Below, piece by piece: positions 10,516 to 36,636 of a stretch of 64,000 nucleotides of DNA; the stretch's first letter is position 1; the number at the start of each line of letters is the position of its first letter. The DNA is taken from NCBI RefSeq assembly GCF_036347135.1, contig NZ_CP108938.1:1054001-1118000 (forward strand), read 5' to 3'. This DNA is from Streptomyces sp. NBC_00775 (GTDB lineage: Bacteria > Actinomycetota > Actinomycetes > Streptomycetales > Streptomycetaceae). A program made the position numbers and the translations under genes. A model generated the notes under the pieces. That model was not told the DNA's origin, made no database searches, and saw only the letters and a program-made list of their open reading frames with translations.

Positions 10516-10551
10516 GTTGCTGTGTGCGCAACATGCTTCAGGTTGCGCAAC
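10516..10551 (-). promoter_or_regulatory. Dual operator of the betaine regulon, dmg promoter
   Basis: Two 17-bp boxes with 19-bp period: GTTGCTGTGTGCGCAAC (10516-10532) fits GTTGCG-N5-CGCAAC in 11 of 12 positions. GCTTCAGGTTGCGCAAC (10535-10551) has a perfect right half. It lies 30-65 bases upstream of the dmg start. The proposed binder is the IclR regulator at 20363. Confidence 0.75.
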
Positions 10552-10620
10552 TCAATGTGCCCGTCGCGGGGATGAGTGTCAAGAGGTCCGTGACGTCGGA
10601 AAACAGCCCGAAACGCGACG

Positions 10621-10656
10621 AGGCCCGGCAGGCTGCCAGCGCAGCCTGCCGGGCCC
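10621..10656 (-). terminator. Terminator of the betB-opuA operon
   Basis: A perfect 15-bp stem (10622-10636 with 10641-10655, arms GGCCCGGCAGGCTGC / GCAGCCTGCCGGGCC, loop CAGC) lies 80 bases past the opuAC stop and before the dmg operator. It separates the transporter transcript from the dmg operon. Confidence 0.8.
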
Positions 10657-10736
10657 CTCCGGCGGGTTTCCGGGTCACTCGTGCGGCAACGGCTCCGCCG
10701 CCGGCCCGGGGGCCGGAGACGGTGCCGCCTCGCGTT

Positions 10737-11708
10737 CTACTTGATCCAGGCGTCGACCTTGTCGCGGTTGGCCTCGACCCACTTCTTCGCCGCGGCGTCG
10801 GCCGACATCTTGTCCACCGCGATGTACTTGGCCACGGTGTTCTGGTCGTCGTTCGTCCAGTTGAACTTCTTCACCAGGTCATAGGCCGGGCTGCCCGACT
10901 TGGCGAACTTCGCGCTGACGACCTTGTCGAGGTCGTACACGGGATAGTCGCAGGCGACCTTCGCCGCATCCGCGTCACAGCCCGTCTTGTACGTCGGCAG
11001 ATTGACCTTGACCAGCGGCACCTCGGACAGGAACCACTGCGGCTCGTAGAAGTAGCCGATCACCCATTCCTTGTTCTTCTCGGCCTTCCGGTAGGCCTGG
11101 ATGAGCGCGGTCTCGCTGCCCGCGTACACCACCTTGAAGTCCAGCTTCAGGTTCTTCACCAGCGCCTCGTCGTTGGTGACGTACGACGGGTCGCCGTCGA
11201 GCAGCTGGCCCTTGCCGCCCGACTCCGAGGTCTTGAACTTGGACGCGTACTTGTCCAGGTTCTTCCAGTCGGTGATGTCCGGGTGCGCCTTCGCCAGCCA
11301 CGGCGGTACGTACCAGCCGATGATGCCTTTGTTGCCGGTCTGGCCGGCCTCGACGGCGGTCTTCTGCCCGGAGATGTACTTCTTCTTCAGATCGTCGTGA
11401 CCCCAGTTCTCCAGGACGGCGTCGACCTCGCCGGTCCCGAAGCCCTGCCAGGCGATCTCCTCCTTCAGGTCCTTCTTGTTGACCGTACAACCGAGGTCGT
11501 GCTGCGCGACATACGCGACGACCGCCGCGTCCGCCTCGTAGCCCACCCACGGGTTGACCGCGAGGTTGAAGGTGCCGCACTTGCCCGAGCTGCTGTCCGA
11601 GCCGGCGGAGCTGTCACCGACCTTCGCACCGCCGCAGGCGGTGAGTGTGAGGCCGAGGACCGCTATGCCGGCCGCGCCGACTCTCCACTTTTTTGCTTGC
11701 GTTGCCAT
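10737..11708 (-). CDS. opuAC: Glycine betaine ABC transporter, substrate-binding lipoprotein
   Basis: A 323-residue exported lipoprotein. The signal peptide ends in a lipobox (LTLTACGG, Cys about 27). The mature part belongs to the OpuAC/ProX family that binds quaternary amines such as glycine betaine or choline (VNPWVGYEADAAVVAYVAQ; VLENWGHDD; VIGYFYEPQWFLSEVPLVKV). Start ATG 11708 has AAGGGAG nine bases upstream, and the gene follows the permease by 13 bases. Aromatic residues for a methylammonium cage are present, but ligand choice cannot be told from sequence alone. Its place beside betB and dmg points to betaine or choline uptake for catabolism. Confidence 0.92.
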   Translation of the reverse strand: MATQAKKWRVGAAGIAVLGLTLTACGGAKVGDSSAGSDSSSGKCGTFNLAVNPWVGYEADAAVVAYVAQHDLGCTVNKKDLKEEIAWQGFGTGEVDAVLENWGHDDLKKKYISGQKTAVEAGQTGNKGIIGWYVPPWLAKAHPDITDWKNLDKYASKFKTSESGGKGQLLDGDPSYVTNDEALVKNLKLDFKVVYAGSETALIQAYRKAEKNKEWVIGYFYEPQWFLSEVPLVKVNLPTYKTGCDADAAKVACDYPVYDLDKVVSAKFAKSGSPAYDLVKKFNWTNDDQNTVAKYIAVDKMSADAAAKKWVEANRDKVDAWIK

Positions 11709-11721
11709 GGTCCGTGCTCCC

Positions 11722-34767: not shown

Positions 34768-34821
34768 AAGGACAAGGAGACCTCGCGCGGCGGCCTCGCC
34801 GTCAACGCCATCGAGTGCTGA
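34768..34821 (+). pseudogene. Relic of the 3' end of an sdaA gene
   Basis: Directly after the gene at 34316, bases 34768-34821 read KDKETSRGGLAVNAIEC and a stop. The intact sdaA at 24156 ends [17 protein letters not shown]. Aligned over 54 bases, 11 differ, mostly silent. No other part of sdaA is visible upstream, so this is the tail of a lost, diverged second copy. It abuts the mscR/MBL operon, which belongs to the same metabolic theme. Confidence 0.7.
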
Positions 34822-34849
34822 GACGAGGCCGCCGCACGGTCGGCAGCGG

Positions 34850-35479
34850 TCAGAACCCGCGGTCGATCCACTCCTGAAGATGCGGGGCCTCGGCGTCGAC
34901 GGTGGTCGTGTCCCCGTGGCCGGTGTGCACGACCGTGTCGCCCGGCAGCGTCAGCAGCCGGACCCGGATCGAGTCGACGATGGTCGGGAAATGGCTGTAC
35001 GACCTTCCCGTCGCCCCCGGTCCGCCCGCGAAGAGCGTGTCACCGCTGAAGAGTGCCTTCAGGCCCGGCGCGTACAGGCACACCGCGCCGGGGGCGTGCC
35101 CGGGGGTGTGCAGCACGGTCAGCTCGACACCGGCCACCGTGACGACCTGCCCGTCGGCCAGTTCGCCGTCGGGTGACCGCTCCGGGTGGGTCTGCTTCCA
35201 CAGCGGCAGGTCGTCGCCGTGGAGCAGGATCGGAGCGCCGGTACGGTCGGCGAGTTCGGGGGCCGCGTCGATGTGGTCGTTGTGGGCGTGGGTGCACACG
35301 ATGGCCCGCAGCGCACGTCCGCCGAGGGCTTCGGCGATCGCCGCGGCGTCATGCGCGGCGTCGATGACGACGGCCTCGGTGTCGTCGCCGACGATCCAGA
35401 CGTTGTTGTCGACGTCCCAGGTACCGCCGTCCAGGGAGAACGTCCCCGAGGTGACCAGATGCTCGATGCGCGCGGTCAT
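34850..35479 (-). CDS. MBL-fold hydrolase next to mycothiol formaldehyde dehydrogenase
   Basis: A 209-residue metallo-beta-lactamase-fold protein with CTHAHNDHIDAAPEL (H-x-H-x-D-H), HTPGHAPGAVC and FSGDTLF, and a late histidine in HTGHGDTT. Its ATG shares one base with the mscR stop. The same pairing occurs in mycobacteria (Rv2259/Rv2260). There it is a candidate for hydrolysing the mycothiol thioester made by MscR or for a glyoxalase-II-like step; which one is not settled by sequence. Confidence 0.9.
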   Translation of the reverse strand: MTARIEHLVTSGTFSLDGGTWDVDNNVWIVGDDTEAVVIDAAHDAAAIAEALGGRALRAIVCTHAHNDHIDAAPELADRTGAPILLHGDDLPLWKQTHPERSPDGELADGQVVTVAGVELTVLHTPGHAPGAVCLYAPGLKALFSGDTLFAGGPGATGRSYSHFPTIVDSIRVRLLTLPGDTVVHTGHGDTTTVDAEAPHLQEWIDRGF

Positions 35480-36564
35480 CAGAACACCACCACCGAGCGC
35501 AGCACATCTCCGCCGTGCATCCGCTCGAAGGCCTTCTCGACATCCTCCAGCGCGATGGTCTCCGTGACGAACGCGTCGAGGTCCAGTCGGCCCTGGAGGT
35601 ACAGGTCGATGAGCATCGGGAAGTCGCGGGAGGGCAGGCAGTCGCCGTACCAGGACGACTTCAGTGCGCCGCCCCGCCCGAAGACGTCCAGCAGCGGCAG
35701 TTCGAGCTTCATCTCCGGGGTCGGCACGCCGACGAGGACGACGGTGCCCGCCAGGTCGCGGGCGTAGAAGGCCTGCTTGTACGTCTCGGGGCGGCCGACC
35801 GCCTCGATCACCACGTCGGCGCCGAAGCCGCCGGTCAGCTCGCGTACGGCCTCGATGGGATCGCCGTGCTTGGAGTTGACGGTGTGGGTCGCGCCGATCT
35901 TCTTCGCGGTGTCGAGCTTCCGCTCGTCGATGTCAACGGCGATGATCTTCGCCGCGCCCGCGAGCCGGGCACCGGCGATCGCCGCGTCGCCGACCCCGCC
36001 GCAGCCGATGACCGCCACGGTGTCACCGCGTCCGACGTTGCCGGTGTTGATGGCCGCGCCGATGCCCGCCATCACTCCGCAGCCCAGCAGTCCGGCGGCG
36101 GCCGCCGATGCCGCACGGTCGACCTTGGTGCACTGCCCCGCCGCCACCAGCGTCTTCTCCGCGAACGCGCCGATTCCCAGGGCCGGGGACAGCTCGGTGC
36201 CGTCGAGCAAGGTCATCTTCTGCTTCGCGTTGTGGGTGTTGAAGCAGTACTGCGGCCGTCCGCGCTGACAGGCCCGGCACTGCCCGCACACGGCACGCCA
36301 GTTGAGGATGACGAAATCGCCGGGGGCGACATCGGTGACGCCCTCCCCCACCGACTCCACGACACCCGCGGCCTCATGACCCAGCAGGAACGGGAAGTCG
36401 TCGTTGATACCGCCCTCGCGATAGTGCAGATCGGTGTGGCAGACCCCGCAGGCCTCGATCTTCACGAGCGCCTCGCCCGGTCCGGGGTCGGGCACGATGA
36501 TCGTTTCCAGGCTGACGGGGGCACCCTTCCCCCGCGCGACGACAGCACGGACCTGGTGAGTCAT
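35479..36564 (-). CDS. mscR: S-(hydroxymethyl)mycothiol dehydrogenase (formaldehyde dehydrogenase)
   Basis: A 361-residue zinc alcohol dehydrogenase. The catalytic zinc set is in [12 protein letters not shown] and [12 protein letters not shown], structural zinc cysteines in [15 protein letters not shown], and the NAD site is [17 protein letters not shown]. The sequence fits mycothiol-dependent formaldehyde dehydrogenase, which oxidises the formaldehyde-mycothiol adduct. Free formaldehyde is expected from the betaine oxygenase and from uncoupled oxidases in this island. ATG 36564 has GAGGAG upstream. A dual operator of the betaine regulon precedes it, suggesting co-regulation. Confidence 0.9.
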
Positions 36565-36600
36565 GGCCACTCCTCGGCTGGTACGAGACCTGAGTCGAAC

Positions 36601-36636
36601 GTTGCTCATTACGGCACGCATCTCATGTGCCGCAAC
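36601..36636 (-). promoter_or_regulatory. Dual operator of the betaine regulon, mscR promoter
   Basis: Boxes GTTGCTCATTACGGCAC (36601-36617, 9 of 12) and ATCTCATGTGCCGCAAC (36620-36636, perfect right half), again with 19-bp period. It lies 37 bases upstream of the mscR start and 12 kb from the next nearest operator. Confidence 0.6.

Follow-up and report, generated by a model that had tools for sequence, protein, structure and literature searches.

The 64,000 nucleotide stretch of Streptomyces sp. NBC_00775 which we have analyzed (contig NZ_CP108938.1, positions 1,054,001 to 1,118,000, called here the window, whose numbering is used below) contains nine copies of a 36 bp dual operator. Each copy consists of two 17 bp boxes of the form GTTGCG-N5-CGCAAC, 19 bp apart, and lies next to genes which appear to be involved in the breakdown of choline and glycine betaine. 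We propose that these sites are the operators of an IclR-family regulator encoded in the same region, at 20363–21160, which would repress the genes of a choline-to-pyruvate route until an inducer is present. We assign this proposal a probability of about 0.86; we infer the binding, the tetramer, the operons, the promoters, the repression and the inducer from the sequence. Operators, promoter-like boxes and genes are listed in Table 1.

An earlier note on this DNA had described nine such sites with a constant spacing, and all of them are confirmed. When the window is scanned for two boxes 19 bp apart, with up to 7 mismatches in 24 positions, exactly these nine pairs are obtained. In 200 control sequences generated with a first-order Markov model, the average number of pairs is 0.86 and the maximum is 4. 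Other spacings between 14 and 30 bp give 0 to 4 pairs each, 15 in total, most of which are shifted registers at the same places. Single boxes, on the other hand, are not enriched in the window: 44 matches with up to three mismatches are found, while 56.6 are expected. Since single boxes are at chance level and 19 bp pairs are above it, the signal is the pair. A matrix derived from eight sites, leaving out that of mscR, gives the mscR site 21.5 bits; the next match, with 14.9 bits, overlaps the gbcA site, and the best unrelated position has 10.5 bits. In a leave-one-out test the eight training sites rank 2 to 9.

The nine sites also stand out in the whole chromosome (11,096,612 bp). A profile model built from 71 sites (R2) gives 17 matches with E ≤ 10, all of them at the nine places, the weakest of the nine having 12.8 bits; these nine are among the 71 sites, so their recovery is by construction. 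No tenth operator was found with this model among the 150 candidates scored, out of 1336 at first look. The earlier note would have abandoned the regulon if the two-box pattern were just as frequent before unrelated genes, and within the scored candidates there is no equally strong site in the rest of the chromosome. With the same scope, a wider regulon in this strain was considered and rejected. Another model, built from eight sites (R1), recovers those eight together with one weak place (13.0 bits) at 9,063,627; the mscR site is not among its matches. A chance origin of the nine sites is rejected by the Markov controls, the gap in matrix scores and the chromosome scan.

The comparison of orthologous promoters, suggested in the note as a check, indicates that the operators are conserved across Streptomyces relatives. 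We have used the best 80 of 254 loci around orthologous iclR genes, with an operator threshold of >16 bits. An operator precedes dmg, betB, purU, betA and the ferredoxin gene (fd) in every case, and iclR and mscR in nearly all cases (counts in Table 1). The 80 loci contain 530 sites above the threshold, as compared to 2 positions in one block-shuffled copy. In the region between betA and iclR (55 loci), the conservation of the boxes is 0.89–0.97, while the DNA between both operators has 0.71. The same operators are present in a cluster with a different gene order (fd / iclR / mscR-dmg-gbcA-betB), whose IclR proteins are 54–59% identical. In some relatives they adjoin genes for BCCT transporters, a pterin-binding enzyme (locus L028) or a molybdopterin oxidoreductase (L048). 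A BCCT transporter gene was searched for in the NBC_00775 genome, and none was found.

At six units of the window (dmg, betB, purU, gbcA, fd and mscR), TTGAC is found 29–33 bp before the operator, and the sequence nAnnnT, 17–18 bp beyond TTGAC, ends 1–4 bp before the operator. In the relatives, the six units yield 322 distinct upstream sequences, of which 317 have an exact TTGAC at -36 to -27, generally 27–33 bp before the operator, and none has it at a control offset. Counting either side, TTGAC is found at 28 of the 41 sites from other regions of Streptomyces and at 13 of the 31 from other genera, with 0–1 in the controls. Being placed directly after both boxes, the operator would cover the start of transcription, which is the position of a repressor. 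An operator is present before iclR, as the earlier note stated, with the amendment that it overlaps the start codon of this gene. The iclR transcript is probably leaderless.

The IclR gene at 20363 had been named as the obvious candidate for the binder, a choice supported by its co-occurrence with the motif, by the sites kept beside iclR and by its recognition helix. The encoded protein gives matches over the cut-off with PF09339 (52.8 bits) and PF01614 (146 bits), which identify it as an IclR-family transcription factor. In a sample of 121 Streptomyces genomes, with thresholds of E ≤ 1e-60 for IclR and E ≤ 0.1 for the motif, the motif is found in 56 of 63 IclR-positive genomes and in 0 of the other 58. 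Fisher's test gives p = 4e-27, a value which ignores relatedness and should not be taken literally: the genomes are related, and some of them supplied training sites (for example G024, the source of locus L002). In a sample of the whole class, 25 of 37 IclR-positive genomes have the motif, as compared to 6 of 209 IclR-negative ones; outside the genus, it is found in 13 of 25 IclR-positive genomes. These six matches have E values of 0.012–0.092, and their number is no more than chance allows at the cut-off over 209 genomes.

The recognition helix may agree with the motif. His49 and Lys50 align to positions 27–28 of the published code, where His27 reads G at 10 and Lys28 reads G at 7, with the base numbering transferred to the motif by ourselves. 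Every aligned IclR with at least 46% identity from a motif-bearing locus has HKST or HRST in this helix. The IclR proteins of loci L107 and L112 have HKSS, and no site is found; locus L146 has a helix of the HKST/HRST type and no site in the locus.

The proposed mechanism would be as follows. The IclR protein would bind all nine 36 bp sites, presumably as a tetramer made up of two dimers, one on each 17 bp palindrome. The earlier note placed the two boxes on successive helical faces, a detail which we have corrected: 19 bp are about 1.8 turns, so both would lie on roughly the same side, as in published tandem IclR sites. At the six units with TTGAC, binding would mask the transcription start and cause repression; at iclR and betA, the operator itself contains a box resembling a -10 element. 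In the presence of choline, betaine or one of their breakdown products, the protein would leave the DNA. The whole route would then be synthesized, beginning with the uptake and oxidation of choline and ending with pyruvate, and with it the enzymes disposing of formaldehyde and folate-bound one-carbon units.

Several observations weigh against this proposal. The -10 boxes were selected as the best of four spacings, and betA and iclR do not have the TTGAC arrangement; their operators contain TATAGC and TATAGT. The gbcA operator exceeds 16 bits in less than half of the relatives, and the betA side of the betA-iclR region is also conserved at 0.89, so the operators do not rise above it. Model R2 was trained on sites from loci with 86–95% identical IclR proteins, some of them in the genus sample, so the test is not fully independent. 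In the class sample, 12 of 37 IclR-positive genomes have no motif at E ≤ 0.1, and the six IclR-negative genomes mentioned above have it. Orphan paralogues in loci L110 and L111 carry the same helix with no nearby site, and the transfer of the published base positions to the motif is our own reading. Finally, gbcA follows the motif just as closely as IclR (56 genomes each, with one exception each way). This could suggest that another regulator binds the sites and that iclR is just a co-regulated neighbour, and it makes the exceptions important for naming the binder. The only genome with a gbcA match and no IclR match (G058) shows no motif. Seven genomes have an IclR match and neither a gbcA match nor a scan match: four of them (G003, G017, G061 and G102) keep a 20–30 bit site beside iclR, while the other three (G002, G021 and G027) do not, two of these having IclR proteins only 47–49% identical. 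As the motif type, the 19 bp tandem spacing and the helix also fit the IclR family, we give very little credence to a different binder.

The same IclR protein might bind the sites and act as an activator, or both activate and repress. This has been described for BhcR, the best NCBIfam match of the protein: according to PMC11323563, it acts as an activator in vivo and its deletion abolishes the induction of its target cluster, which is a further point against simple repression. Poor -10 boxes could suit an activated promoter, and there is a second operator upstream of the fd promoter. However, the -35-like and -10-like boxes of six units precede the operator, and a protein bound in this downstream position would block polymerase rather than recruit it. 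We consider activation quite improbable, and repression by this IclR protein is the explanation we prefer.

The second operator upstream of fd, at 24099, had been assigned to sdaA. Its position is correct, but the assignment has to be changed: we read it as mainly an upstream operator of fd, with sdaA gained beside it in the lineage to which the window and L002 belong. Only one of the 80 loci (L002) has sdaA, although some loci end before that place. Nevertheless, of the 73 loci with fd, 40 keep a second operator at 101–103 bp from that of fd, and 39 of these 40 have no sdaA in the locus. The ends of this operator are conserved, while the DNA beyond it is poorly conserved (0.48–0.57). It might instead be the promoter-proximal operator of sdaA itself, its persistence elsewhere being a relic of sdaA loss. 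In the window it ends 21 nt before the start of sdaA, and this gene is also found in a related operator-bearing Streptomyces cluster (L103). Against this, besides its persistence in loci where sdaA is absent, the sdaA side has no TTGAC in the usual position, and we regard such a role as unlikely.

Some other arrangements of these elements have been observed. Loci L102 (18292/18376), L103 (7567/7651) and L104 (17906/17990), which belong to another cluster type, contain two dual operators 84 bp apart, and only one of each pair has TTGAC at the usual distance. A second sdaA gene is located at 3,266,384 in the NBC_00775 chromosome, some 2 kb away from a gene of the GCV_T type (G000:C1 3263373–3267733), without an operator match.

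Tandem sites of this type are already known. Suvorova and Gelfand (2021, PMC8222616) predict tandem IclR-family sites for 94 orthologous groups and attribute them to tetramers; in their GTT-11-AAC subgroup, 17 bp GTT-N11-AAC palindromes are found near gene starts, with tandem centres 18–22 bp apart. The window operators share the 17 bp palindromes, and the 19 bp spacing of the nine pairs falls within this range. They differ in the fourth base, which is a pyrimidine in the published consensus and mostly G in the window (GTTGC). The words betaine, choline and sarcosine are absent from the main text, with the supplementary tables outside this search. The complex of TtgV with its operator (PDB 2XRO, as described in PMC8222616) shows an IclR-family protein on its operator, and is cited there as a model for tetrameric binding. 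TtgV is a relative in sequence, but it regulates an efflux pump and its helix has Pro-Arg-Ser-Thr, as compared to His-Lys-Ser-Thr in the window protein. The match to BhcR (NF045644) has 196.1 bits, below the equivalog cut-off of 350 bits. BhcR, IclR and AllR, which are glyoxylate sensors, likewise regulate a pathway beside their own cluster, but three of the pocket residues of E. coli IclR are different in the window protein.

Other bacteria regulate choline and betaine breakdown with GbdR, SouR and BetI, which are of the AraC and TetR types, unlike the IclR family. In the titles and opening lines of abstracts, among the matches listed and with subscription papers and supplements outside this search, we found no IclR regulator of actinobacterial betaine breakdown. 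The 120 protein matches listed, out of 5676, have generic or conflicting names (IclR family transcriptional regulator, Glycerol operon regulatory protein, AllR) or none. The operator type is therefore known, while we have not found this gene set described under such an operator. With our proposal, choline and betaine breakdown in Actinomycetes would have a regulator, precisely located sites and a logic which can be tested. The proposal would also account for the link between demethylation and copies of enzymes of folate, serine and formaldehyde metabolism. If the inducer is found, the cassette could be used as an inducible system in Streptomyces.

The inducer pocket gives some indications. In E. 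coli IclR, glyoxylate is contacted by Gly160, Ala161, Asp212, Ser239 and Ser241, according to a table of PMC11323563. The window protein has Ser, Ser, Thr, Ser and Ser at these positions, so only the two serines are kept. Glyoxylate is an unlikely inducer, since Gly160, Ala161 and Asp212 are not conserved. Trp140, at the position of Pro149 in E. coli IclR, is nearly invariant: of 122 aligned IclR stretches with at least 45% identity, 120 have it. Two IclR proteins in the 65–84% identity band have Arg in place of Trp140. Our guess is that the inducer might be a methylated amine. We also put forward, very tentatively, a class-wide regulator of actinomycete betaine breakdown which would use an aromatic pocket including Trp140 to sense a methylated amine; a cassette of TTGAC, a weak -10 box and the 36 bp operator would precede most units, and the upstream operator of fd would act at a distance.

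Judging by their protein families, the genes headed by operators would make up a complete route from choline to pyruvate. The opuA genes would import choline or betaine, and betA and betB would convert choline to betaine. Betaine would be demethylated to dimethylglycine by gbcA with its reductase and fd, then to sarcosine by dmg and to glycine by soxBDAG. The products of folD, purU, glyA and mscR would handle one-carbon units and formaldehyde, and sdaA would convert serine to pyruvate. The sites start at 10516, as the earlier note indicated. The dmg operator seems to head a six-gene operon, dmg-folD-glyA-soxB-soxDA-soxG, down to 696, so the regulon would reach beyond the span given in that note.

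Table 1. Dual operators, -35-like boxes and genes in the window. Fractions refer to relatives' loci or, for TTGAC, to distinct upstream sequences in relatives.
Feature	Positions	Strand	Basis
Dual operator, dmg and putative co-directional folD-glyA-soxB-soxDA-soxG	10516–10551	.	Pair scan; 52/52
Dual operator, betB and putative co-directional opuA genes behind	16335–16370	.	Pair scan; 63/63
Dual operator, purU	16479–16514	.	Pair scan; 43/43
Dual operator, betA; contains -10-like TATAGC, betA strand	20261–20296	.	Pair scan; 67/67
Dual operator, iclR; overlaps GTG start and -10-like TATAGT at 20351	20336–20371	.	Pair scan; 80/82 copies
Dual operator, gbcA	22395–22430	.	Pair scan; >16 bits in only 33/73
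Dual operator, ferredoxin/reductase genes	23996–24031	.	Pair scan; 73/73
Second operator, 103 bp upstream of fd operator, also before sdaA here	24099–24134	.	Pair scan; kept in 40 loci
Dual operator, mscR	36601–36636	.	Matrix and pair scan; 59/61
TTGAC, -35-like box, dmg	10578–10582	-	Exact in 52/52
TTGAC, -35-like box, betB	16395–16399	-	Exact in 63/63
TTGAC, -35-like box, purU	16449–16453	+	Exact in 43/43
TTGAC, -35-like box, gbcA	22458–22462	-	Exact in 27/32
TTGAC, -35-like box, fd	24060–24064	-	Exact in 73/73
TTGAC, -35-like box, mscR	36663–36667	-	Exact in 59/59
soxG, sarcosine oxidase gamma	696–1298	-	Domain search
soxD and soxA (sarcosine oxidase delta and alpha), joined in a single 1095-residue open frame	1291–4578	-	
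soxB, sarcosine oxidase beta	4591–5823	-	Domain search
glyA, serine hydroxymethyltransferase; true start later than that of this open frame, whose domain begins near residue 155	5820–7592	-	
folD, methylene-tetrahydrofolate (THF) dehydrogenase/cyclohydrolase	7151–8011	-	Domain search
dmg, dimethylglycine oxidase-like (DAO and GCV_T); start chosen by eye	8048–10486	-	
Betaine-binding protein (OpuAC)	10737–11774	-	Domain search
Choline/betaine ABC permease	11722–14025	-	Domain search
ABC ATPase, approximate limits	13950–14843	-	Domain search
betB, betaine aldehyde dehydrogenase-like	14840–16309	-	Best NCBIfam match, under its cut-off
purU, formyl-THF deformylase	16529–17401	+	Domain search
MTHFR-like protein behind betA	17704–18540	-	Pfam match at cut-off
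betA, choline dehydrogenase	18544–20211	-	Domain search
IclR-family regulator, candidate binder; HKST in recognition helix, residues 49–52	20363–21160	+	Pfam HTH_IclR, IclR_C
gbcA-like Rieske oxygenase	21162–22292	-	Best NCBIfam match glycine betaine monooxygenase, under its cut-off
Ferredoxin reductase	22459–23661	-	Domain search
Rieske ferredoxin (fd)	23625–23987	-	Domain search
sdaA, L-serine ammonia-lyase	24156–25535	+	Domain search
Metallo-beta-lactamase-fold hydrolase behind mscR	34850–35479	-	Domain search
mscR, S-(hydroxymethyl)mycothiol dehydrogenase	35479–36564	-	Domain search

In the window, about 9 kb (25535–34850), coding for a STAS protein, a reductase, a fatty acid desaturase and others, separate sdaA from mscR and the hydrolase gene behind it. 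In L002, on the other hand, this pair of genes is found within 70 bp after sdaA. The orphan IclR paralogues (L110, 9657–10445, and L111, 9527–10294) are 70–72% identical, and the region covered around them contains no site; that of L110 is located near a gene for a thiamine-diphosphate enzyme. A motif match also lies before an MTHFR gene at L160 (9474), whose genome, G138, gives no IclR match at E ≤ 1e-60.

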